Shown piece by piece: positions 42,539 through 60,226 of a DNA stretch of 64,000 nucleotides. Position numbers and translations under genes: made by a program. The DNA lies in assembly GCA_018896025.1 (NCBI GenBank), contig JAHIND010000008.1:434001-498000 (forward strand), written 5' to 3'. The stretch comes from Pseudomonadota bacterium (GTDB lineage Bacteria > Desulfobacterota > Desulfarculia > Desulfarculales > Desulfarculaceae). The notes under the pieces are model-generated. The model had not been told where the DNA came from. It ran no database searches and saw nothing but the letters and a program-made list of their open reading frames with translations. Numbering within the stretch: the first letter of the stretch is position 1; each line of letters starts with the position of its first letter.

Positions 42539-43633
42539 ATGGGGAACCTTCGTCTGATTAAAACCGACTACACCTATGCGGATCTTTCCACCAGCCTCAG
42601 CCCCGCCGTGGAAAAGAGCATGGAAGAGGGTAAATCGGCCAGCACGCTGGTGGTCAACTTCTTTTCCGCCGACAGCATCACCACCGGAGTTCTGGAAGAC
42701 CCTGAGAAATCCCTGCATATGGATTTTTGCAAGGAAAAGGGCATCGTGGTGCGGCGGCGGCTGAATGCCGGAGGGGCCATCTTCGCCAACCAGGGCTCGG
42801 TCATGAACTGCCTATATCTGGATTTGAGCCAGCCCTGGGTGCCTTTCAAGACCATCCGCGAGGCCTTCCCCTTTTTCCTGGAGCGCATGGCCGAGGTGGC
42901 CAGCGAATTGTTCGGCATCGATGCCCGCTACCGTCCGGTGAACGATATCGAGGTGGGCGGCCGAAAGCTGGTGGCCACCTCCGCCCGCTCAGAACAAGGC
43001 ATACTCACCCTGCGTAGCGTGATCAACGTGGTCCCCGTGGACCGCTCCCTCATGTCCGGGGCCATCATCGCCCGTCCGGAGAAATTCCAGGACAAAGTCC
43101 AAAAAGACGGCGGCGCCCGCTTCACCTGCTTCCAGGACGAGGCGGGCCGCCTCGTAGAGCGCGATGATATCTACGCCCTGGCCACCGGCACCATGAAGAG
43201 GGCCTTTGGCGAGGATCTGGAAATCGTGGAAGGCGAGCTGACCGGCCTGGAGCAGCGATACCTGGAGGACTACCTGGAGCGCTTCGGCTCGGACGAGTGG
43301 TTCTACGCCAACAGCGAGCGGGTGCGTTTCACGGGCGCCGACCCGGCGGCCCGTAGGGTGGAGGCCTATCACAAGGCCCCGGCCGGGCTCATGGGCCTGG
43401 CCCTGTTGGCCCTGGACGGCAAGGTGCACGACATAATCCTCTTGGCGGACTTCCATCCCAGCCCCTATTCGGTGATGGGCACCTTTGAAGGCGCCTTGCG
43501 CGGCCAGCCGCTCAATCTGGACGCCATGATGGAGCGGGTGGCCCAGGTGTACAACGCGCCCGGAGTGGAGATTCCCGGCGCCGAGTTGAGCGACTTCGCC
43601 ACCTTGCTGGACAAGGGCCTGAAGCTGCTTTAG
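42539..43633 (+). CDS. divergent lipoate-protein ligase (LplA)-like protein A
   Basis: 364 aa; GIVVRRRLNAGGAIFANQGSV, YRPVNDIEVGGRKLVATSARSEQGILTL, LplA C-domain-like DEWFYANSERVRF...GKVHDIILLADFHPSP. Confidence 0.8.
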   Translation: MGNLRLIKTDYTYADLSTSLSPAVEKSMEEGKSASTLVVNFFSADSITTGVLEDPEKSLHMDFCKEKGIVVRRRLNAGGAIFANQGSVMNCLYLDLSQPWVPFKTIREAFPFFLERMAEVASELFGIDARYRPVNDIEVGGRKLVATSARSEQGILTLRSVINVVPVDRSLMSGAIIARPEKFQDKVQKDGGARFTCFQDEAGRLVERDDIYALATGTMKRAFGEDLEIVEGELTGLEQRYLEDYLERFGSDEWFYANSERVRFTGADPAARRVEAYHKAPAGLMGLALLALDGKVHDIILLADFHPSPYSVMGTFEGALRGQPLNLDAMMERVAQVYNAPGVEIPGAELSDFATLLDKGLKLL

Positions 43634-44864: not shown

Positions 44865-45971
44865 TCAGGCGCTAAGGGCCTCCGGGCTGAAAGCCTTGGT
44901 AAAGGCGGCCAGGAAATCGTCGATTTCAATGCCGGTCATCTCCACGTCCGGACGGGCGTAAATTCGCTCCAACTCCTTGCGCACCACCTCCAGGTCGCGG
45001 GGCTTGCCCCGCAGGGCGTCCTCGACGTCCAGGGTCACGCGGTAGGGGGAGGGGTGAAAGTCGCCGGTCACGATCAGGTCTTCAATCAGGTCGTCCTTGC
45101 TCAAGAGGGTGACCCGCAAAAGACCGGCCACGGCCTTTTGGCACCCTTCGCTCTTGACGGCCTCGGCCGGGGCCTGGCCGAAACGCAGGCGTTCGGAGTT
45201 GCCGTAGAACCACTCTTGTGAGTTGTAGGTGTCCTGGTAATCCCGGAGATAGCCCTCTTCCTCGGTGGTCAGCTTGCCGGGGGCCAAGGATATTTCACCG
45301 CCGAACATCTTGTGGATGGTCAGGCGGGATAGCTCCTCAAGGTCGTCGGCGGTGATTTCGCGGCCCAGCTCGTTTTCCAGGCTGGTGAAGCGCTGGCCGA
45401 TGTCCTTTATGGTCTTGTCCTGCACCTTGACCGGGTTGGTGATGATGGCCTTGCGCAGCACGTCCCGGTCGGTGTTGACCACGTTGATCAACAGGCGCAG
45501 GGTGAGGATGCCGTTTTCCAGGCGGGCCGAGCTCGGCACCACCTTGCGGCCCTCCACCTCCACGTCGTTCAGCGGGCGGTAGCGCGCCTCCAGCCCCCAA
45601 AGCTCCTTGAGGGCCTCGGCGATGGCGGTCAGCGAAACGCGGAAAGCGTCCTTGATGTTGGTGAGCGGTACGCCCATTTTCTTGGGGTTCAGGTACAGGC
45701 ACAGGAAGGCGCCGCCCTTGGGGCCGAACACCGCGCCGCCGGTGTTTTGGCGGCGGCGCACCACGATGCCCGTCTGGGCGCAATATTCCAGGTCGATGGC
45801 CTTTTCCGGATCATCCAGATAGCCCGAGGTGATGCTGTCGGTGCTGAACACGTTGAGCAGCACCGTGTTGGGCGCGACGCCGCTGTCCAGGCCCTTTTCA
45901 ACCGCCGGAGAAATGCTGGTGGAAAAATCGGCGTAAGAATAATCGCATTTGATAAACCGCAACTGCTTCAT
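44865..45971 (-). CDS. divergent lipoate-protein ligase (LplA)-like protein B
   Basis: 368 aa; GIVVRRRQNTGGAVFGPKGGA, YRPLNDVEVEGRKVVPSSARLENGILTL, C-domain SQEWFYGNSERLRF...IEDLIVTGDFHPSP. Confidence 0.8.
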   Translation of the reverse strand: MKQLRFIKCDYSYADFSTSISPAVEKGLDSGVAPNTVLLNVFSTDSITSGYLDDPEKAIDLEYCAQTGIVVRRRQNTGGAVFGPKGGAFLCLYLNPKKMGVPLTNIKDAFRVSLTAIAEALKELWGLEARYRPLNDVEVEGRKVVPSSARLENGILTLRLLINVVNTDRDVLRKAIITNPVKVQDKTIKDIGQRFTSLENELGREITADDLEELSRLTIHKMFGGEISLAPGKLTTEEEGYLRDYQDTYNSQEWFYGNSERLRFGQAPAEAVKSEGCQKAVAGLLRVTLLSKDDLIEDLIVTGDFHPSPYRVTLDVEDALRGKPRDLEVVRKELERIYARPDVEMTGIEIDDFLAAFTKAFSPEALSA

Positions 45972-48555: not shown

Positions 48556-48792
48556 GTAATATTTCATTTAACTTTGGCTGTATGTCAATCATTTTTTAGC
48601 CTCAGTCAGGTGCTTCAATTATCCCCTCCGCACGGGAGGATGGTTGAGCCGGCATAGCAACTCTGTAATATAACATTAAAAAAACCGGCTACTTCGCTTA
48701 TCTTAATAATCGCTTGCAGGGCGCATAAAAAATAATTAAAATAATAATCAAATATACGATAAAAATGACGTTGCGAAAAGGTGATAAACAAA

Positions 48793-49494
48793 ATGGCGGT
48801 AAAAAGCAAGGGCCAGGGGGGGGCGACCGGTAAAAGAGGCGTGGCCATCGAAGAGGCTCACAACCGTATCAAGAACATGATCTACCTGAACCAACTCGCG
48901 CCCGGTCAAAAAATCATCTACAGCGATCTGAGCAAGCGCATCAACACCAGCGTCACGCCGGTGATCCAGGCCCTGAACCGCCTGGAGGCCAATGGCTTTG
49001 TGAACTACATACCCAATAAAGGGTATTTCGTGGGCGAGATAACCCAAGAAGAAGCCATGGAACTCTATGAGGCGCGCGAAGCCCTGGAGACCTACATAAT
49101 CCCCCTGATCATCCAGAACATCACCAAGTCGGCCATTGAGGAAATCAAGACGGTCTTCCGCAAACACAACCGCGAGGCGGCGGGAGGGCCCAACCGCAAG
49201 ATCATTTTGGTGGACGCCCGTTTCCATCTCAAACTGGCCGAATATTCGGGCAACGACGTCATCAACGCCATGTTGAGCGATATCTACGAAAAGCTTTACC
49301 TCAAGTACCGCCCTGAATACCTGGCGGCTCCCCAAATGCGTGAAGTCTCCGCCGAGCACCGCAAAATATTGGACGCCCTGGGCAGGGGAGACGCCCAAAC
49401 CGCCATCGAGACCACCATCAAGCACATCGCGGCCAGCAAGGAGCGCATAACCCGCGCTTTGCAATATCGTCAAGAAACAGGCTTTTATCAGTAG
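48793..49494 (+). CDS. GntR-family (FCD-type) transcriptional regulator, paralogue 3
   Basis: KRGVAIEEAHNRIKNMIYLNQLAPGQKIIYSDLSKRINTSVTPVIQALNRLEANGFVNYIPNKGYFVGEI. Confidence 0.9.
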   Translation: MAVKSKGQGGATGKRGVAIEEAHNRIKNMIYLNQLAPGQKIIYSDLSKRINTSVTPVIQALNRLEANGFVNYIPNKGYFVGEITQEEAMELYEAREALETYIIPLIIQNITKSAIEEIKTVFRKHNREAAGGPNRKIILVDARFHLKLAEYSGNDVINAMLSDIYEKLYLKYRPEYLAAPQMREVSAEHRKILDALGRGDAQTAIETTIKHIAASKERITRALQYRQETGFYQ

Positions 49495-49719: not shown

Positions 49720-50505
49720 ATGGAGTACCAAAACATCATTTTCGAGGTCAAGGAAGGCATCGGTCACCTCATCATCAATCGCCCCGAGGTGCGCAATGCC
49801 CTCAACCGGGCCGCCCGCCTGGAAATGGCCGACGTGTTGGCCAAGGTGCAGGGCGATTCTTCCATAAAGGTGCTGGTGGTGTCCGGGGCGGGGGACAAGG
49901 CCTTTGTGGCCGGTTCGGACGTCAAGGAGCTGGCCAAGTACAGCCCCTTGGACATGGAAAACTTCATGGACACCCTGGCCCAGGGCTTTTACTCCCAGTT
50001 CGAGCGCTTGGACCGCCCGGTCATCGCCATGATCGACGGCCTGTGCCTGGGCGGCGGCTTGGAGTTCGCCCTGGCCTGCGACCTCAGGTTCGCCTCGGAG
50101 CGCTCCCTGATGGGTTTGCCCGAGATTCGCCTGGGCATCATGCCCGGAGGCGGGGGCACCCAGCGCCTGCCGCGGTTGGTGGGAGTGGCCAAGACCAAGG
50201 AGCTGATTTTCACCGGCGAGTTCATCAAGGCCGACGAGGCCCTGCGCCTGGGCATCGTCAACCAGGTATACCCGGCGGATGAGCTGGAAGAGCAGGTGAT
50301 GGCCGTGGCCAAGAAGATCGCGGCCAGGAGCAGCCTGGCCCTCAAGTGGGCCAAAAAGGCCATCAATGCCTCCCAGGAGACCGGGCTCAGGGCCGGGTTG
50401 GACTATGAGGCCATGGTGGAGTGCCTGCTGTTCACCAGCGAGGACCGCCAAGAGGGTATCAAGGCGCTGTTTGAAAAACGTGAGCCGAACTTCCAGGGCA
50501 AGTAA
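49720..50505 (+). CDS. enoyl-CoA hydratase/isomerase
   Basis: 261 aa; KAFVAGSDVKEL, DGLCLGGGLEFALACDLRFASERSLMGLPEIRLGIMPGGGGTQRLPRLVG. Confidence 0.93.
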   Translation: MEYQNIIFEVKEGIGHLIINRPEVRNALNRAARLEMADVLAKVQGDSSIKVLVVSGAGDKAFVAGSDVKELAKYSPLDMENFMDTLAQGFYSQFERLDRPVIAMIDGLCLGGGLEFALACDLRFASERSLMGLPEIRLGIMPGGGGTQRLPRLVGVAKTKELIFTGEFIKADEALRLGIVNQVYPADELEEQVMAVAKKIAARSSLALKWAKKAINASQETGLRAGLDYEAMVECLLFTSEDRQEGIKALFEKREPNFQGK

Positions 50506-50551: not shown

Positions 50552-51706
50552 GTGATGCAATACAACACCTCCGAGCTCACCGAAGAGCAGAGAATATTCC
50601 AGGATATGATGGCCGACTTCGCCGACGAGGTCTTGGCCCCCATGGTAGACGAGGCTGAAGAGACGGGCCACACCCCCTTGGCCCTGTTCACCAAGATGGC
50701 CGAGATGGGCTTCCTGTGCCCCCGCTACCCCGAGGAGTTGGGCGGCGGCGGCGCGGACAAGCTCAGCGAGTGCATCATGATCGAGCAGGTGTGCCGGATA
50801 AACGCCGGTTTCTGCGGGGCTATCGTGGCTCATAGCGGCCTGGGCACCATGCCCATCTACCTGCACGGCTCCCAAGAGCAAAAAGAGAAGTACCTCATCC
50901 CCGCCATCAAGGGCGAGAAGATCGCGGCCTTCGGCCTAACCGAGCCCAACGTGGGCTCCGACGCCGCCTCCATCCAGACCAGGGCGGTGCGCGACGGCGA
51001 CGAGTACGTGATCAACGGCACCAAGATGTTCATCACCAACGCGCCCATCTGCGACTACGTGATCGTGGCGGCCTACACCCAGCCCGACAAGCGGGGCCTG
51101 GGCATCAACCTGTTCCTGGTGGACAAGGGCACCCCCGGCTTCACGGTGAGCAAGAAGCTGGACAAGGTGGGCAACCACGCCGCCGAGACCGGCGAACTGG
51201 TGTTCGAGGACTGCCGGGTCCCCGCCGAAAACCTCATCGGCGGCAAGGAGTGCGGCGGCTTCCAGCAACTGGAGGACATCCTGATCTCCGGGCGCATCAC
51301 CTACGGGGCCCGCTGCCTGGGCACCGCCCAAGCGGCCTACGATCTCAGCGTGGAGTACGCCAAGCAGCGGGTGCAGTTCGGCAAGCCCATCATCAAGTTC
51401 CAGAACACTTCTTTCAAGCTGGCCGAGATGGCCACCTACATCGACGTGATGCGCACCTACGTGTGGCGGGTGGCCCGTTTGTACGAGGCCGGGGCCAACA
51501 TGAAGAAGGAATCCTCCATGGTCAAGCTGTTCTGCGCCGAACTGCTGCAGAACATCACCAACACCGGCATGCAGATCCACGGCGGCTACGGCTACATGAT
51601 GGAGTATCCCATCCAGCGTCACTGGCGCGACGGACGCCTGTACACCGTGACCGAGGGCACCTCCGAGGTGCAGCGTATCGTCATCTCCAAAGAGTGCGGA
51701 TTCTAG
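50552..51706 (+). CDS. acyl-CoA dehydrogenase
   Basis: AAFGLTEPNVGSDAASIQTRAV, MQIHGGYGYMMEYPIQRHWRDGRLYTVTEGTSEVQRIVISK. Confidence 0.93.
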   Translation: MMQYNTSELTEEQRIFQDMMADFADEVLAPMVDEAEETGHTPLALFTKMAEMGFLCPRYPEELGGGGADKLSECIMIEQVCRINAGFCGAIVAHSGLGTMPIYLHGSQEQKEKYLIPAIKGEKIAAFGLTEPNVGSDAASIQTRAVRDGDEYVINGTKMFITNAPICDYVIVAAYTQPDKRGLGINLFLVDKGTPGFTVSKKLDKVGNHAAETGELVFEDCRVPAENLIGGKECGGFQQLEDILISGRITYGARCLGTAQAAYDLSVEYAKQRVQFGKPIIKFQNTSFKLAEMATYIDVMRTYVWRVARLYEAGANMKKESSMVKLFCAELLQNITNTGMQIHGGYGYMMEYPIQRHWRDGRLYTVTEGTSEVQRIVISKECGF

Positions 51707-51715
51707 GGCGGGGTC

Positions 51716-53257
51716 ATGGATCATCTCATCGAACAGCTCGAACAGAAGAACCAAGCGCATCGCCTGGGAGGCGGGGCCAAACGCATCGAACGGGAGCACG
51801 CCAAGGGCAAGCTCACCGCGAGGGAGCGCCTGGATTACCTGTTCGACAAGGACACCTTCATCGAGGTGGGCTTGTTGACCGACCACACCTGCCGCGATTT
51901 TGGGCTGGAAACTCAGCACATGCCCGGTGACGGAGTGGTGACCGGCTACGGCAAGGTTGACGGCCGCACGGTCTTCGCCTTTGCCCAGGACGCTACGGTA
52001 ATGGGCGGCAGCCTGGGGGACATGCACTCCCAGAAGATCTGCACCGTTATGGACCTGGCGGTGAAGGCCGGGGCTCCCATCGTGGGCATCAACGATTCGG
52101 CCGGGGCCAGGGTGCAGGAAGGCGCCGAGGGCCTGGCCGGGTACGGCCTCATCTTCAAGCGCAACGTCAATGCCAGCGGGGTGGTGCCCCAGATCTCGTT
52201 GATCATGGGCAACTGCGCCGGTGGGGCGGTCTACTCGCCGGCCATGACCGACTTCGTGTTCATGGTCAAGAAGACCTCCTACATGTTCATCACCGGCCCC
52301 AAGGTCATCATGTCGGTCACCGGCGAAGAAGTGACCATGGAAAAACTGGGCGGGCCCCGCATCCACACCAAGATTTCGGGCAACTGCGACCTGGCCGCCA
52401 AGGACGACAACGACTGCCTGGAGCAGACAAAGCGACTGCTCTCCTTCTTGCCCAGCAACGCCCGGAACGTCCCGCCGCGTTTGGAAGCCTCGGAAGAAGC
52501 GCCTTTTGACGAGGATATTCACAAGCTCATCCCCGAGGACCGCAAAAAGTTCTTCGACGTGCGCGAGGTCATCTCCCGCCTGGTTGACGGCGGCGACTTC
52601 ATGGAGGTCAAGGCCCTGTACGCGCCCAACATCGTGTGCGGCTTCGGCCGGGTGGCCGGGCGCTCGGTGGGCATCGTCGCCAACCAATCGCGCCATTTGG
52701 GAGGGGCCCTGGACAGTGACGCCTCGGACAAGGCCGCCCGCTTCGTGCGCACCTGCGATGCCTTCAACGTCCCCCTGGTGAGCCTGGTGGACGTGCCCGG
52801 CTATTTGCCCGGGGTCAAGCATGAGTACAGCGGAATCATCCGCCACGGGGCCAAGATGATCTACGCCTACTCCGAGGCCACGGTTCCCAAGATCACCATC
52901 ATCCTGCGCAAGGCCTACGGCGGAGCCTATCAGGCCATGTGCTCCAAGCAGCTCGGCGCGGATCAGGTGTGGGCCTGGCCCTCGGCCGAGGTGGCGGTGA
53001 TGGGCGCCGAGGGCGCGGTGGATATCGTCTACGCCAAGGACATCGCCAAGTCCGACGCTCCCGAGGTAACTCGCCAGGAAAAAATCGAGGAGTACCGCGA
53101 AAAGTTCGCCACGCCCTACAACGTGGCCAGGAAGCTGCACGTGGACGCGGTGATCCTACCCGGCGACACCCGGCGCTATCTGGTGCAGGCCCTCCAGGCC
53201 CTGGAAGACAAGCAGGAACCAAAACCCTGGCGCAAACACGGCAACGTGCCGCTTTAG
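51716..53257 (+). CDS. acyl-CoA carboxylase carboxyltransferase subunit (propionyl-CoA carboxylase/methylmalonyl-CoA decarboxylase type)
   Basis: 513 aa; RIEREHAKGKLTARERLDYLFDKDTFIEVG, SLGDMHSQKICTVMDLAVKAGAPIVGINDSAGARVQEG, KAYGGAYQAMCSKQLGAD. Confidence 0.92.
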   Translation: MDHLIEQLEQKNQAHRLGGGAKRIEREHAKGKLTARERLDYLFDKDTFIEVGLLTDHTCRDFGLETQHMPGDGVVTGYGKVDGRTVFAFAQDATVMGGSLGDMHSQKICTVMDLAVKAGAPIVGINDSAGARVQEGAEGLAGYGLIFKRNVNASGVVPQISLIMGNCAGGAVYSPAMTDFVFMVKKTSYMFITGPKVIMSVTGEEVTMEKLGGPRIHTKISGNCDLAAKDDNDCLEQTKRLLSFLPSNARNVPPRLEASEEAPFDEDIHKLIPEDRKKFFDVREVISRLVDGGDFMEVKALYAPNIVCGFGRVAGRSVGIVANQSRHLGGALDSDASDKAARFVRTCDAFNVPLVSLVDVPGYLPGVKHEYSGIIRHGAKMIYAYSEATVPKITIILRKAYGGAYQAMCSKQLGADQVWAWPSAEVAVMGAEGAVDIVYAKDIAKSDAPEVTRQEKIEEYREKFATPYNVARKLHVDAVILPGDTRRYLVQALQALEDKQEPKPWRKHGNVPL

Positions 53258-53290
53258 GCCGCGCCTGTCGGCAAAAGGAGCTTGATAGTC

Positions 53291-53689
53291 ATGAGTAAAC
53301 GTATTCGAGTTCTGGCGGCCAAGCCCGGTCTGGACGGGCACGACCGCGGCATAAAGGTGGTTTGCGCCGGTCTCAAGGACGCGGGCATGGAGGTGATCTA
53401 CACCGGCCTGCGCCAGACCCCCGAAGCCATCGTGGCCGCCGCCATGCAGGAGGATGTGGACGTCATCGCCCTGAGCACCTTGTCCGGGGCCCACAACCAA
53501 CACCTGCCCCGGGTGGCCCAGCTTCTGCGCGAAAAAGACGCGCAGCATATCCTGCTGGTAGCCGGGGGCATCGTGCCTCCCCATGACCGCGTCTCCCTCA
53601 GAGAAAAGGGAGTAAGTGAAATATTCGGGCCCGGCACCACCATGACTCAAATCGCCGAGTTCATCAGGACCAACGTGTCCCTGAGCTGA
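53291..53689 (+). CDS. cobalamin-binding small subunit of acyl-CoA mutase
   Basis: [68 protein letters not shown] (DxHxxG). Confidence 0.93.
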
Positions 53690-53708: not shown

Positions 53709-55364
53709 GTGTCCATGGACCAGAGCAAAATAAAAGAAGCAAAAGCCAAGTGGGCCCAAAGCGACCCCGATCTGGCCAAGTTGTCTCCCCGCCACACCGA
53801 CTGGGGCGACCCAGTGGAGAGCCTCTACACCCCCGCCGACGTGCAGGAGCAGGACTACCTGGAGCAGTTGGGCTTCCCCGGCGAGCATCCCTTCGCGCGC
53901 GGGGTATATCCCAGCATGTACCTGGGCCGCCCCTGGACGGTGCGCCAGTATTCGGGCTATGACTCGCCCAAAGACACCAACGCCCGCTTTCGCTATCTGC
54001 TGGAGCAGGGCCAGACCGGCCTGAGCGTGGCCTTCGACCTGCCCACCCAGATCGGCTACGACTCGGACCATCCCATGTCCGCGGGCGAAGTGGGCAAGGT
54101 GGGGGTGCCGGTGGACACCCTGGAGGACATGGAGGTCATCTTCGAGGGCCTGCCCTTGGACAAGCTATCCACCTCCATGACCATCAACGCGCCCTCGGCC
54201 ATCATGCTGGCCATGTACGTGAGCATTGGCAAGAAACAGGGCCTGGAACCCAAGGTGCTGCGGGGCACCCTGCAAAACGACGTGCTCAAGGAGTACACGG
54301 TGCGGGGCACCTATATCTTCCCGCCCAAGCCGTCCATCCGGCTGGTCACCGACATCTTCGAGTATTGCAGCAAGAACGTGCCGCGCTTCAACACCATCAA
54401 CGTGGCCGGCTACCACATGCGAGAGGCGGGCTGTTCGGCGGTGCAGGAAATAGCGTTCGCTTTCAGCAACGCCATCGCCTACATCGAGGCCGGTCTTGAG
54501 GCGGGTTTGGATATCGACAAGTTCGCTCCGCGCATAAGCTGGATATTCAACACCAACAACAAGATTTTTGAAGAAGTGGCCAAATACCGGGCCGCCCGGC
54601 GCATATGGGCCGAGATGCTCCGGGACCGTTTTGGTGCCAAAGATCCACGTTCGTGCATGCTGCGCTTCCACACCCAGACCAGCGGGGCCAGTCTGACCGC
54701 CCAACAACCCCTGAACAACGTGGTGCGGGTGGCTTACCAGACTCTGGCCGCGGTGCTGGCCGGGGCCCAGTCCATCGCCGCCTGCTCCTATGACGAGGCG
54801 CTCAGCCTGCCCACCGAGGAGTCGGTGCGCACCAGCCTGCGCACCCAGCAGATTCTGCGCGAGGAAACCGGGGTCACCGACACCATAGACCCCATGGGCG
54901 GCTCCTATTACATGGAAGCCCTGACCAACCAGCTTTACGCGCGCATCAAGGAACTGATGGCCGAGGTAGAGGAAATGGGCGGCGCGGTGGAGGCCATCGA
55001 GAAGGGCTTCGTGCAAAAAGAGATAGAGCGCCGGGCCTACGATATTCAGAAACAGGTCGAGCTCGGCGAACAAGTGGTGGTGGGCGTGAACAAGTACGCC
55101 ATCGAGGAAGACGAGCAAGAGGTTTTGGTCGAGTCCAACCCCCAGGCTGAGCAGGACCAGATTCAGCGGCTGCAAGCCCTGAAAAACCGGCGCAGCCAGG
55201 ACAAGGTGAACAGCGCCTTGGCCGCTCTCAAGCAACAGGCTCAGGGCGACGGAGCCCTGATGCCGGTGATTATCGAGGCGGTGGAGGCCTACGCCAGCTT
55301 GGGCGAGATCTGCGGCGTGCTGCGTGAGGTGTTCGGCGAGTATCAGCCGGTAAGAACCATCTAA
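53709..55364 (+). CDS. methylmalonyl-CoA mutase-family large subunit (no fused B12 domain)
   Basis: 551 aa; YLGRPWTVRQYSGYDSPKDTNARFRYLLEQGQTGLSVAFDLPTQIGYDSDHP, LKEYTVRGTYIFPPKPS. Confidence 0.92.
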   Translation: MSMDQSKIKEAKAKWAQSDPDLAKLSPRHTDWGDPVESLYTPADVQEQDYLEQLGFPGEHPFARGVYPSMYLGRPWTVRQYSGYDSPKDTNARFRYLLEQGQTGLSVAFDLPTQIGYDSDHPMSAGEVGKVGVPVDTLEDMEVIFEGLPLDKLSTSMTINAPSAIMLAMYVSIGKKQGLEPKVLRGTLQNDVLKEYTVRGTYIFPPKPSIRLVTDIFEYCSKNVPRFNTINVAGYHMREAGCSAVQEIAFAFSNAIAYIEAGLEAGLDIDKFAPRISWIFNTNNKIFEEVAKYRAARRIWAEMLRDRFGAKDPRSCMLRFHTQTSGASLTAQQPLNNVVRVAYQTLAAVLAGAQSIAACSYDEALSLPTEESVRTSLRTQQILREETGVTDTIDPMGGSYYMEALTNQLYARIKELMAEVEEMGGAVEAIEKGFVQKEIERRAYDIQKQVELGEQVVVGVNKYAIEEDEQEVLVESNPQAEQDQIQRLQALKNRRSQDKVNSALAALKQQAQGDGALMPVIIEAVEAYASLGEICGVLREVFGEYQPVRTI

Positions 55365-55411: not shown

Positions 55412-56815
55412 ATGGCGGGCATTTTTACAGCCGCTGCTCATATTCCCTATCTCAAGATAGAGCGAAAAACCATAGGAGGGGCCTGGGAGCGGGGGGGCCA
55501 AAAGGGCTGCCGCAGTGTGGCGGGAAGCGATGAAGACTCCCTGACCATGGCCGCCGAGGCCGCCGGGGCCGCCCTGGAGGCCGGAGGCCGCGACGGAGTG
55601 CAGGCGCTTTACTTCGCCTCCACCACCGCTCCCTACAGGGAAAAGGCTACTGCGGCCATGCTGGCCACGGTCTTGGACCTGGGCGGCAACATGGAGACCC
55701 TGGACCTGGGCAACTCCCTGCGCTCCGGGCTGGGCGCCCTGAAGCTGGCCTTGGACACCGCTGACGGCGGCAAGGTGTTAGTGGCTTCTGGGGAAAAGCG
55801 CCTGGGTTATCCCCGCTCCGACCAGGAGCAGCTCTTCGGCGACGCCGGAGCGGCGGTGCTGGTTGGCGGCGGCGACGCGCCGGTGGCCTACCTGGGCGGC
55901 TACGCGGTCACCGATGAGATCACCGACGTGTGGCGTACCCAGGAGGACACCTACGTGCAATCCTGGGAAGGACGCTTCGTTACCGGCGAGGGCTACCTCC
56001 GGGTGACCGCCCAGGCGATAAAGGGCCTGATGTCCCAGATGGGGCTGAAGCCCGAGGACATCGCCAAGGCCATCATACCCGCGCCGGACCCCCGTTCGGG
56101 CATGGGGATTTTGAAAAAGACCGGGCTCAGCCAGGCGGGCGAGGCCGTGGATTCCCTGCTGGAGACGGTCGGGTTCTGCGGAACGGCCCATCCCCTGGTG
56201 ATGCTGGCCGCCGTCCTGGAGCAGGCCCAGCCCGGCGAAAAGATTCTGCTGGCCGCCTACGGCGACGGGGCCCAGGCCCTGTTGTTCGAGGTGAAGAGCC
56301 AGCCGGTCCTGCCCGCGGTGAGCGTGCCCCAGCAACTGGAGAGCCGCCGCGCCATCAACTCCTATGCACGTTTCCTCAGCTTCAACGGGCTGGTGGAGCC
56401 GCAACCTGGCGAACCATTCCGCCTGGTGCCCTCGGCCACGGTGATCTGGCGAGAGCGCGACTCCCTGTTGCGCTGCCGGGGCAGCAAGTGCCAGGTGTGC
56501 GGCACGGCGGCCTTCCCCATCCAGCGCATCTGCGATAACTGCCGCAGCGTGGACCAGTTTGACACGGTGCGCCTGAGCAGCATGGCTGGCGAGGTGTTCA
56601 CCTTCAGCCGGGACAACCTGGCCGGAAGGCCGGACGACCCGGTGATCGTGCAGACCGTGGTGCAGATGGAAAACGGGGCCCGTTTCTACGGCCTGATGAC
56701 CGACGCCGACCCCAACCAAGTGGATTTGGGCATGCCGGTTAAGCTCACCCTGCGCCGCATGCACGACTTGGGTGGGTTCCACAACTACTTCTGGAAATGC
56801 CGGCCGGTGAGGTAG
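55412..56815 (+). CDS. HMG-CoA synthase-like domain fused to C-terminal DUF35 (zinc ribbon/OB-fold) domain
   Basis: 467 aa; thiolase-fold N-half plus CRGSKCQVCGTAAFPIQRICDNCRSVDQFDTVRLSSMAGEVFTFS. Confidence 0.85.
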   Translation: MAGIFTAAAHIPYLKIERKTIGGAWERGGQKGCRSVAGSDEDSLTMAAEAAGAALEAGGRDGVQALYFASTTAPYREKATAAMLATVLDLGGNMETLDLGNSLRSGLGALKLALDTADGGKVLVASGEKRLGYPRSDQEQLFGDAGAAVLVGGGDAPVAYLGGYAVTDEITDVWRTQEDTYVQSWEGRFVTGEGYLRVTAQAIKGLMSQMGLKPEDIAKAIIPAPDPRSGMGILKKTGLSQAGEAVDSLLETVGFCGTAHPLVMLAAVLEQAQPGEKILLAAYGDGAQALLFEVKSQPVLPAVSVPQQLESRRAINSYARFLSFNGLVEPQPGEPFRLVPSATVIWRERDSLLRCRGSKCQVCGTAAFPIQRICDNCRSVDQFDTVRLSSMAGEVFTFSRDNLAGRPDDPVIVQTVVQMENGARFYGLMTDADPNQVDLGMPVKLTLRRMHDLGGFHNYFWKCRPVR

Positions 56816-56828
56816 CGGGGAGATTATC

Positions 56829-58016
56829 ATGGGTAGCATAAAGGACAAAGTAGCAATCATCGGCATGGGGTGCAGCCAGTTCGGCGAGCGCTGGGACACC
56901 GGCATGAGCGACCTGGCCATCGAGGCCTCCAGCGAGGCCTTCAAGGACGCGGGGGTAGGGCCCGAGGACATCGAGGCCTGCTTCTTCAGCACGGTGTACG
57001 CCCCCATGGGCGGCACCGGCTCCTCGGCCGCCGCCGACGCCCTAAAGCTCAGGGACATTCCCATAATCCGCAACGAGAACTGGTGCACCAGCGGGCACAT
57101 CGCCCTGTTCGAGGCCTGCATGGCCGTGGCCAGCGGCATGTACGACGTGGTCATGGCCCTGGGCGTGGAAAAGCTCAAGGACACCGGATACGCCGGTCTG
57201 GGCATGGGCCGGGGCATGAACCCGGTACTGGAGGCCCGGCGCACCGCGCCCGGCTCCTTCGCGCTCATCGCCAAGCGCTATTTCCAGGAATACGGGCTGA
57301 GCAACGAGGAAGGCAAGGAGCTTATCGGCCGCATCGCGGTGAAGAACCACGACAACGGCAGCCGCGCCCCCAAGGCCCACTTCCACAACAAGGTGCCTTT
57401 GGAAAAAGTGCTGGCCGCTCCGGTCATCGCCTGGCCTCTGGGTCTGTTCGACTGCTGCGGCAACAGCGACGGCGCGGCCTGCGCCATCGTCACCCGTGCG
57501 GACATGGCCAAGAACTTCCGGGACGATCCCATCTACCTGAAGGGCGTGGGCGTGGCCATGGATTCCTCCATGCCCCATCTCAGGCCCAACTTCGACTGGA
57601 TTCACTTCGGGGCCCTGATGAACTCCTCCAAGAAGGCCTACGAGATGGCCGGCATCACCAACCCCCGCGAGGAGTTGGACCTGGCCGAGGTGCACGACTG
57701 CTTCACCATCACCGAGCTGGCCATCTACGAGAACTTCGGATTCAGCAAGCCCGGCGGAGCCATAGAGGACATCCGCTCCGGATTCTTCGAGATCGGCGGT
57801 GGTTTGCCGGTGAACATCGACGGCGGGCTCAAGTGCTTCGGCCACCCCATCGGGGCCAGCGGCCTGCGCATGACCTATGAGATCTACAAGCAGTTGCAAC
57901 AAAAGGTGGACAACCCCGAGCGTCAGGTGAAGAACCCGCGCCTGGGCCTGTCCCACACCTTTGGCGGCCCGCCCCAGATCAGCGCGGTGGCCATATTGGG
58001 CAACGAAAAGGGTTAG
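56829..58016 (+). CDS. thiolase-family protein (SCPx/BbsB-like)
   Basis: 395 aa; ENWCTSGHIALFEACMAVASG, LAEVHDCFTITELAIYENFG, GGLKCFGHPIGASG. Confidence 0.9.
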   Translation: MGSIKDKVAIIGMGCSQFGERWDTGMSDLAIEASSEAFKDAGVGPEDIEACFFSTVYAPMGGTGSSAAADALKLRDIPIIRNENWCTSGHIALFEACMAVASGMYDVVMALGVEKLKDTGYAGLGMGRGMNPVLEARRTAPGSFALIAKRYFQEYGLSNEEGKELIGRIAVKNHDNGSRAPKAHFHNKVPLEKVLAAPVIAWPLGLFDCCGNSDGAACAIVTRADMAKNFRDDPIYLKGVGVAMDSSMPHLRPNFDWIHFGALMNSSKKAYEMAGITNPREELDLAEVHDCFTITELAIYENFGFSKPGGAIEDIRSGFFEIGGGLPVNIDGGLKCFGHPIGASGLRMTYEIYKQLQQKVDNPERQVKNPRLGLSHTFGGPPQISAVAILGNEKG

Positions 58017-58055: not shown

Positions 58056-58928
58056 ATGAATATCAAGAAAGTTATGGTGGTGGGCTGCGGGACCATGGGC
58101 TCGGGCATCGTGCAGGTTTGCGCCCAGTCCGGTTTGCAGGTGGTGATGACCGACGTCTCTCAGGAGATGCTGGACAAGGCCCTAAAGACCATCGCCTGGT
58201 CGGTGGGCAAGCTGGCCGACAAGGGCAAGATAGCCGACGACAAGGACACGGTGATGGCCCGTATCACCGCCAGCCAGGACTACGCCGCCGGTGCCGACGC
58301 CGACTTGGTGGTGGAGGCGGTGTTCGAAAGCATCGAGGTGAAGAGGGAGGTATTCGGCAAGCTGGAGAAGGTCGTAAGCCCCACGTGCTTGCTGGCTTCC
58401 AACACCTCGGCCATCCCCATCAGCGCCATCGGCGGTGGCCTGGAGCATCCTGAGCGGGTGCTGGGCCTGCACTTTTTCAACCCGGTGCCCATGCTGGACG
58501 CGGTGGAGGTTATCAAGGGCATCTCCACCAGCGAGGAGACCATGCAGGCCGGGGTGGATTTCATCCGCTTCTTGGGCAAGGAGCCCATCCGGGTGGACAG
58601 CGACATCGCCGGGTTCATCCTGAACCGCTGCAACATGCTGCTGAACATGGAGGCCTACCGCCTGGTGGAGCAGAAGGTCTCCACCCCCAAGGACATCGAC
58701 ACCGGCTTCCGCCTGGCCTTCGGCCGTAAGATGGGCCCCCTGGAGACCTCGGACTTGGTGGGCCTGGACGTGCAGCTCATGGCCTATACCAACGTGTATG
58801 ACGAGGAAAAGGACTCGCGCTTCTACCCGCCGTCCATCCTGCGGCGCAAGGTGGAGGCCGGGCACCTGGGCCGCAAGACCGGCAAGGGCTGGTACACCTA
58901 CGACAAGGACGGCAAGCGCATAGATTAA
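58056..58928 (+). CDS. 3-hydroxyacyl-CoA (3-hydroxybutyryl-CoA) dehydrogenase
   Basis: MNIKKVMVVGCGTMGSGIVQVCAQSGLQV; NTSAIPISAIGGGLEHPERVLGLHFFNPVPMLDAVEVI. Confidence 0.93.
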   Translation: MNIKKVMVVGCGTMGSGIVQVCAQSGLQVVMTDVSQEMLDKALKTIAWSVGKLADKGKIADDKDTVMARITASQDYAAGADADLVVEAVFESIEVKREVFGKLEKVVSPTCLLASNTSAIPISAIGGGLEHPERVLGLHFFNPVPMLDAVEVIKGISTSEETMQAGVDFIRFLGKEPIRVDSDIAGFILNRCNMLLNMEAYRLVEQKVSTPKDIDTGFRLAFGRKMGPLETSDLVGLDVQLMAYTNVYDEEKDSRFYPPSILRRKVEAGHLGRKTGKGWYTYDKDGKRID

Positions 58929-58975: not shown

Positions 58976-59018
58976 AACCCTTGAGGCCTATCGGGTCCAC
59001 CCTTGGGCCTCAAGGGTT
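58976..59018 (+). terminator. hairpin, possible terminator
   Basis: AACCCTTGAGGCC / GGCCTCAAGGGTT perfect 13-bp stem, followed by TGTT only. Confidence 0.5.
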
Positions 59019-59077
59019 TGTTACGCACGGGACAGGGCAGATCTGTCGGAGTTTTTAAAAACAAAAAGGTTGGAAAC

Positions 59078-60226
59078 ATGAATTTCGCACTTACCGAAGA
59101 ACAACAGATGGTCAAGGAGACCGCGGCCCGCATCGCCGACGAGGACCTGAAGCCCAAAGCGGCGCATTTCGACGAGAACCACGAGCACCCGGCCGAGGCC
59201 TGCGCCACTTTGGGCGAGCTGGGGTTCATGGGCATCGCGGTGCCCGAGGAGTACGGCGGCGCGGGCATGGATTACGTTTCCTATGTGCTGGCCCTGAGCG
59301 AAATATCCAGGGGCGACGCTAGCGTGGGCGTGATCATGAGCGTGAACAATTCGCTGTACTGCTTCCCGGTGATGACCTTTGGCACCGAGGAGCAGAAAAA
59401 GGCTTTTCTCACCCCGGTGGCCAGCGGAGCCAAGATCGGCTGCTACGGGCTTACCGAGGCCGGGGCGGGCAGCGACCCCGCGTCCCTGCGCACCACCGCG
59501 GTTTTGGATGGCAACCAGTGGGTGCTAAACGGCGAGAAGAAGTTCATCACCAACGGCAACGTGGCCTCCTACGCGGTGATCGCGGCGGTGACCGACAAGG
59601 CCGCCGGGGCCAAGGGCATCAGCTCCTTCATCGTGGATTTGGAAAACACCCCCGGCTTTTCCGTGGGGCGGGTGGAAGACAAGATGGGTATCTGCGCCTC
59701 GGGCACCTCGGAGTTGGTGTTTGAAGACGCGCGCATTCCCAAGGACAACATTCTGGGTGAGCCGGGCGCGGGCCTACGCCAGATGCTCACCACCCTGGAC
59801 AGCGGGCGCATCGGCATCGGCTCTCAGGCCCTGGGTATAGGCAAGGCGGTGCTGGAGGAGGCCGTGCAGTACGCCGGGTAGCGCGAGCAGTTCGGTAGGC
59901 CCATCTCCGCTTTCCAGGCCATCCAGTGGAAGCTGGCCGACATGGCCACGGCCCTGGAGGCGGCGGAGCTGCTGTTGCTCAAGGCGGCTTGGATGGAAGA
60001 CCAGCACTCACACTTTGAAAAAAACTCGGCCATGGCCAAGATGTTCGCCAGCGACGCGGCCATGAACGCGGCCATCGAGGGCGTGCAGATCCTGGGCGGC
60101 TACGGGTATTGCAAGGAATACCCCATGGAGCGCCACATGCGCGACGCCAAGATCACCCAGATTTACGAAGGCACCAACGAGATCATGCGCCTGGTCATCG
60201 CCCGCAACCTTTTGAAAAAGCGCTAA
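59078..60226 (+). pseudogene. acyl-CoA dehydrogenase interrupted by one in-frame amber codon (TAG at 59879-59881)
   Basis: MNFALTEEQQMVKETAARIADEDLKPKAAHF...[45 protein letters not shown]...[22 protein letters not shown]; same frame on both sides. Confidence 0.85.

Follow-up and report, generated by a model that had tools for sequence, protein, structure and literature searches.

What can a protein with the fold of HMG-CoA synthase (HMGCS) do once it lacks the residues that carry out HMGCS catalysis, and what is its relation to the thiolase encoded directly behind it? This question is raised by a gene from a Desulfarculaceae bacterium (Desulfobacterota), located in a 64,000-nucleotide stretch of DNA that was analysed as a whole and is referred to here as the window. 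By analogy with known complexes, we propose, with a probability of roughly 0.77, that its product is a non-catalytic partner subunit of the downstream thiolase and would complete the CoA/substrate cavity of that enzyme.

A fused HMGCS-fold/DUF35 protein without the catalytic triad

The gene and its parts are as follows.

55412..56815, + strand: HMGCS-like/DUF35 fusion protein of 467 aa (P0001), with its ATG at 55412 and its stop codon ending at 56815
55412..56401, + strand: HMG-CoA-synthase-fold domain, residues ~1-330, without the catalytic residues
55622..55624, + strand: codon of Thr71, at the position of the HMGCS catalytic Glu (Glu of SESHPY), by family alignment
55718..55720, + strand: codon of Leu103, at the position of the HMGCS nucleophilic Cys (Cys of FACKAG), by family alignment
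56078..56080, + strand: codon of Pro223, at the position of the HMGCS catalytic His (His of FHQPN), by family alignment
56429..56812, + strand: DUF35 (zinc ribbon and OB fold), residues ~340-467, with Cys360, Cys363, Cys374 and Cys377

An AGGAGG a few bases 5' of the ATG provides a good ribosome-binding site, and a promoter scan returned sites no more commonly than in shuffled sequence. In sequence alignments, residues 5-327 match the archaeal HMGCS 6esq_I (E 4e-22), residues 34-289 match PhlA (E 2e-22 and 2e-20), and residues 346-466 match 6esq_E, the DUF35 partner of 6esq_I (E 8e-11). The AlphaFold2 model of the fusion (pLDDT 93.7, pTM 0.93) has 6esq_I as its top fold match in the PDB, with a TM score of 0.90 by target length and an rmsd of 1.7 Å, followed by PhlA and then MucA. 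Across 85 aligned sequences the four zinc-ribbon cysteines never vary, and neither do a DED motif and a C-terminal YxWK; a first-pass annotation, made from the sequence alone, had likewise placed a Cys4 DUF35 domain at the C-terminus.

To read the triad, the fusion was aligned to two true archaeal HMGCS (L107 and L108) and to 6esq_I; neither the sequence alignment nor the fold match to 6esq_I recovered a Glu/Cys/His triad. The substitution of Thr for Glu and Leu for Cys and the loss of His, as originally proposed, were thus confirmed at Thr71, Leu103 and Pro223, and the corresponding positions are free of Glu, Cys and His in all 109 fused homologues, which span Desulfobacterota, Chloroflexota, Bacillota, archaea and others. 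The catalytic Glu is replaced by Thr in 105 of the 109 and by Ser or Val in four, and the catalytic Cys by Leu, Ile, Thr, Gln or Val. Glu and Cys are likewise gone from all eight fusions found in plasmid records of named isolates (Novosphingobium, Azoarcus, Rhodococcus, Mycobacterium avium, Streptomyces, Haloferax and Haladaptatus), with only Haladaptatus keeping the His. The loss of the triad is therefore real, but it is a trait of the fused family at large and no event of the host genome. Lineage-specific decay was rejected on the same grounds, since the loss spans the entire fused family.

Intermediates with an intact triad were sought in 198 genomes of the host phylum. The archaeal HMGCS model was matched at E <= 1e-25 in 70 of these, no match exceeded its cut-off, and at the best 30 loci the triad positions held neither Glu nor Cys nor His. 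The fusions nearest to true HMGCS came from a single family of the phylum (f42; L127-L132) and scored 261-324 bits against a cut-off of 353, also without the triad; genomes of this family have up to seven archaeal-HMGCS-like matches each. In a phylogenetic tree, the 17 fused proteins sampled formed one clade apart from true HMGCS (support 100/100). The triad may have been lost once or several times: PhlA was placed beside true HMGCS in this tree and in a second one, although a single dead clade that includes PhlA was not rejected (AU p = 0.44).

Could the fusion nonetheless be a true HMG-CoA synthase whose triad has been rearranged? Its fold matches closely, and its top HMGCS matches are archaeal models, at 118-147 bits. 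These scores are far below the cut-offs, however, with 118.5 bits against 353.35 for TIGR00748 (archaeal-type HMGCS), so that by score the fusion is not a member of TIGR00748, and 146.7 bits against 244 for a second archaeal model. The nucleophile position lacks Cys in all 109 fused proteins. In addition, two archaea with the fused form (L085 and L106), where it lies beside thiolase and mutase genes, encode a separate true HMGCS well over the cut-off. The L107 copy of true HMGCS is adjoined by a separate thiolase and a separate DUF35 gene. The fusion thus has the fold of HMGCS with neither its score nor its triad, and on these grounds we reject this identity as strongly disfavoured and highly improbable.

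The absence of catalytic residues might also be taken as the mark of a decaying, pseudogene-like remnant with no function. This is contradicted by conservation, as the protein is full-length and conserved across phyla with the Cys4, DED and YxWK motifs invariant, and its ribosome-binding site is good. We regard a functionless remnant as scarcely credible.

The partner thiolase and its linkage to the fusion

The next gene begins 13 bp 3' of the fusion gene.

56829..58016, + strand: SCP2-type thiolase of 395 aa (P0002), active site intact
57084..57086, + strand: codon of the thiolase nucleophile, Cys86

The active-site residues are Cys86, HDCF (289-292) and GHP (338-340), which bears out the early reading of this gene as an intact thiolase. 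All three elements are invariant in 89 of 89 thiolases paired with a fusion, and the active site is also intact in the partners from all eight plasmid isolates. By both sequence and fold, the closest solved relative of the thiolase is the thiolase of the archaeal complex, such that the top PDB fold matches of the fusion and of its neighbour are subunits of one complex (6esq/6et9). With HDCF and a nucleophilic Cys, the partner is set apart from the Ltp2 and Sal aldolases, and an aldolase of this type was ruled out.

Scanning a single genome for each species, we obtained at least 562 confirmed relatives of the fusion. We analysed the best 80 of these, i.e., those most similar to the query; they came from Desulfobacterota-type bacteria, Chloroflexota, Bacillota (Sporomusa, Solobacterium and Syntrophomonas), Acidobacteriota, Armatimonadetes, Nitrospinota, two archaea and others. 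Within a set of 61 related genomes, 14 have at least one fused copy, and the host genome has a second that is 35% identical. A thiolase adjoins the fusion in nearly all of the best 80 loci of at least 562, mostly with a spacing of -4 to +50 bp, and the pairing is not due to chance because it recurs so widely among them. A marker search found no thiolase at 10 of the 80 loci, but six of these are cut by contig ends and one (L100) is partly masked, leaving three (L049, L058 and L086) that truly have no adjoining thiolase. In each of these three genomes a thiolase with a strong match (497-630 bits) is encoded at another place. A thiolase also adjoins the fusion in all eight plasmid loci. The best 80 loci lie closest to the query in similarity, so it is only through these eight that adjacency was sampled among the most distant relatives. 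Evolutionary distances of fusion and thiolase were correlated across 74 non-redundant pairs (r = 0.72, where the best of 2000 permutations reached 0.21). Mere co-inheritance in one operon would, however, also produce linkage and a correlation of distances.

The pair varies in architecture. In two loci (L139 and L147) the same design is unfused, with the thiolase, a triad-less HMGCS-like protein and DUF35 encoded by three genes side by side. The cluster of Novosphingobium sp. ES2-1 has the fused type and its thiolase beside a lipid-transfer-protein/OB-fold pair. Three further loci (L171, L172 and L173) have a fusion of ~910 aa, extended by SDR and SCP2 domains, directly upstream of the thiolase; a second SDR-SCP2 gene precedes the extended fusion, and in two of the three an acyl-CoA dehydrogenase follows the thiolase. 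This arrangement comes near to a single-chain β-oxidation assembly, of which we found no description.

The extended fusions, with their adjoining SDR-SCP2 gene, could point to a different kind of partnership, in which the fusion channels substrate from a 3-hydroxyacyl-CoA dehydrogenase to the thiolase, for example, rather than completing the thiolase. It would also fit the SDR or HCDH genes that often lie close to the fusion in other loci. The type and position of the dehydrogenase vary, whereas the neighbour is nearly always a thiolase, and we consider channelling of this kind quite improbable.

A proposed non-catalytic thiolase subunit

The four closest known systems combine a thiolase-fold enzyme with a DUF35 protein. 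The closest in structure, the archaeal acetoacetyl-CoA thiolase/DUF35/HMGCS complex of Methanothermococcus (6esq, 6et9), has the same three folds encoded by three genes rather than two, and CoA binds at the interface of its three proteins (PMC6392133). In the pair studied here, by contrast, the triad is absent, HMGCS and DUF35 are fused, and the setting is a β-oxidation operon instead of a mevalonate context. The second system, PhlACB (PpATase)/MucABC (5m3k, 9skh, 9vbo), likewise consists of an HMGCS-like subunit without Cys and Glu, a DUF35 protein and a catalytic thiolase-fold subunit. PhlA lacks the catalytic Cys and Glu and catalysis is due to PhlC residues only; active PhlACB is obtained only on co-expression of the complete operon, PhlA and PhlB are very likely needed for assembly, and PhlB links PhlA to PhlC around a cavity that they share (PMC6392133). 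Our pair shares the triad-less HMGCS-like part and the Cys4 DUF35, the latter as a fused domain, but it departs from the layout of three subunits encoded in a biosynthetic cluster: A and B are separate chains in PhlACB/MucABC and joined here, giving two genes. PhlACB also produces a C-acylated natural product independently of CoA, while the partner here has the full set of SCP2-thiolase residues and lies in a catabolic operon.

The remaining two systems have no HMGCS-like part. In the benzoylsuccinyl-CoA thiolase BbsAB (7pxp), which belongs to anaerobic β-oxidation, an SCP2-type thiolase is likewise paired with DUF35, but BbsA is DUF35 only, and the pair here falls far below the NCBIfam equivalog cut-offs, with 21.4 of 250 bits for the fusion against BbsA and 164 of 750 bits for the thiolase against BbsB. 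The steroid aldolases Ltp2-ChsH2 and Sal-Shy (6ok1, 9myr) are also thiolase-fold enzymes bound by DUF35; they have YDHF or YDCY, and Sal has Gly for the nucleophilic Cys, where the thiolase studied here carries HDCF and Cys86 (PMC12329534).

On this basis, a single chain would unite the roles of the separate HMGCS-like and DUF35 subunits of the archaeal complex and PhlACB. The DUF35 part would clamp the thiolase to the HMGCS-like part, which in turn would close a shared CoA/substrate cavity next to the thiolase active site without performing any chemistry. The thiolase, using Cys86 as its nucleophile and the histidines of HDCF and GHP, would carry out the final thiolytic step of a β-oxidation round. 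The first-pass annotation had likewise suggested that the synthase part became a scaffold or CoA-binding subunit of the thiolase, and this reading is supported by a partner that is always intact, nearly always adjoining and otherwise encoded elsewhere in the genome, and most like the thiolase of the archaeal complex. We amend it in two respects: PhlA provides a published precedent (PMC6392133), and the physical complex, its CoA binding and the dependence of the thiolase on the fusion are what we infer. Counting against a scaffold, other SCP2-type thiolases have been solved without such a partner, and for BbsAB, Ltp2-ChsH2 and Sal-Shy a DUF35 protein is enough by itself (PMC12329534). The lipid-transfer-protein/OB-fold pair that shares the Novosphingobium sp. 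ES2-1 cluster with the fused type counts against it as well.

The HMGCS-like domain does have conserved residues of its own. Among the 39 positions that are at least 90% conserved in the first 330 residues, 18 depart from one or more of the HMGCS references. Every one of the 109 fused proteins has Arg130 and Gly257, where HMGCS has Ser/Ala and Tyr, and Asp144, like Arg130, is conserved in the fused family and different in HMGCS. Such residues (e.g., Arg130, Glu139 and Asp144) could support a new catalytic activity that acts before or after the thiolase. Arg130, Gly143, Gly257 and Ala259 are, however, fully or nearly common to PhlA/MucA-type subunits, no catalytic role was found for PhlA (PMC6392133), and the old catalytic positions keep no Cys or His; a new activity is therefore unlikely. 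Somewhat less doubtful is the idea that the emptied synthase pocket acts as a specificity module, in which Arg130 and Asp144 might help to bind the acyl tail or a second CoA. If so, one scaffold design would let SCP2-type thiolases of bacteria and archaea take many bulky or branched substrates.

Operon context and public annotation

The fusion and thiolase lie within an operon whose other genes, together with an upstream regulator, are listed below.

48781..49494, + strand: GntR/FCD regulator, upstream of the operon
49720..50505, + strand: enoyl-CoA hydratase
50552..51706, + strand: acyl-CoA dehydrogenase
51716..53257, + strand: carboxyltransferase of the propionyl-CoA carboxylase beta / methylmalonyl-CoA decarboxylase alpha type
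53282..53689, + strand: B12-binding small subunit, methylmalonyl-CoA-mutase type
53709..55364, + strand: methylmalonyl-CoA-mutase-type large subunit
58056..58928, + strand: 3-hydroxyacyl-CoA dehydrogenase
59003..60226, + strand: second acyl-CoA dehydrogenase, with an in-frame TAG at 59879-59881

The order is thus hydratase, acyl-CoA dehydrogenase, carboxyltransferase, B12 subunit, mutase-type subunit, fusion, thiolase, 3-hydroxyacyl-CoA dehydrogenase and second acyl-CoA dehydrogenase, with intergenic gaps of 9-74 bp. Such a gene set suggests a round of β-oxidation that yields propionyl-CoA. Because the operon has both propionyl-CoA-carboxylase-type and methylmalonyl-CoA-mutase-type genes, one product of thiolysis is probably propionyl-CoA, and the substrate would be an odd-chain or alpha-methyl compound. 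Mutase-type genes occur near 10 of the best 80 of at least 562 relatives.

The TAG at 59879-59881 is a Glu codon in two genomes of the same genus, and no PylS over the cut-off was detected in the host genome. Pyrrolysine read-through was ruled out for these reasons, and the TAG is instead either a nonsense mutation or an error in the sequence. Elsewhere in the window, 42539-43633 and 44865-45971 encode proteins that resemble each other (364 and 368 aa); the two genes face opposite ways, ~1.2 kb apart, and their products appear lipoate-ligase-like by eye.

A dead HMGCS-like subunit combined with DUF35 and a thiolase-fold enzyme is already known from PhlACB. What we did not find described in any paper of the open-access literature searched is the fused two-gene form, its breadth, its catabolic setting and the strict contrast between a dead and an intact active site. 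With at least 562 relatives, the family points to a large and apparently uncharacterised group of two-component thiolases that keep a pseudoenzyme partner, and it makes a possible reuse of the synthase half of the archaeal channelling complex as a structural part testable. Public records annotate members of the family as HMG-CoA synthase, ACP synthase III, OB-fold protein or hypothetical protein, and pathway reconstructions can therefore wrongly infer mevalonate or ketone-body chemistry. Two fusions without the catalytic Glu and Cys (L179 and L180) are named hydroxymethylglutaryl-CoA synthase in public records, which is probably a misannotation.
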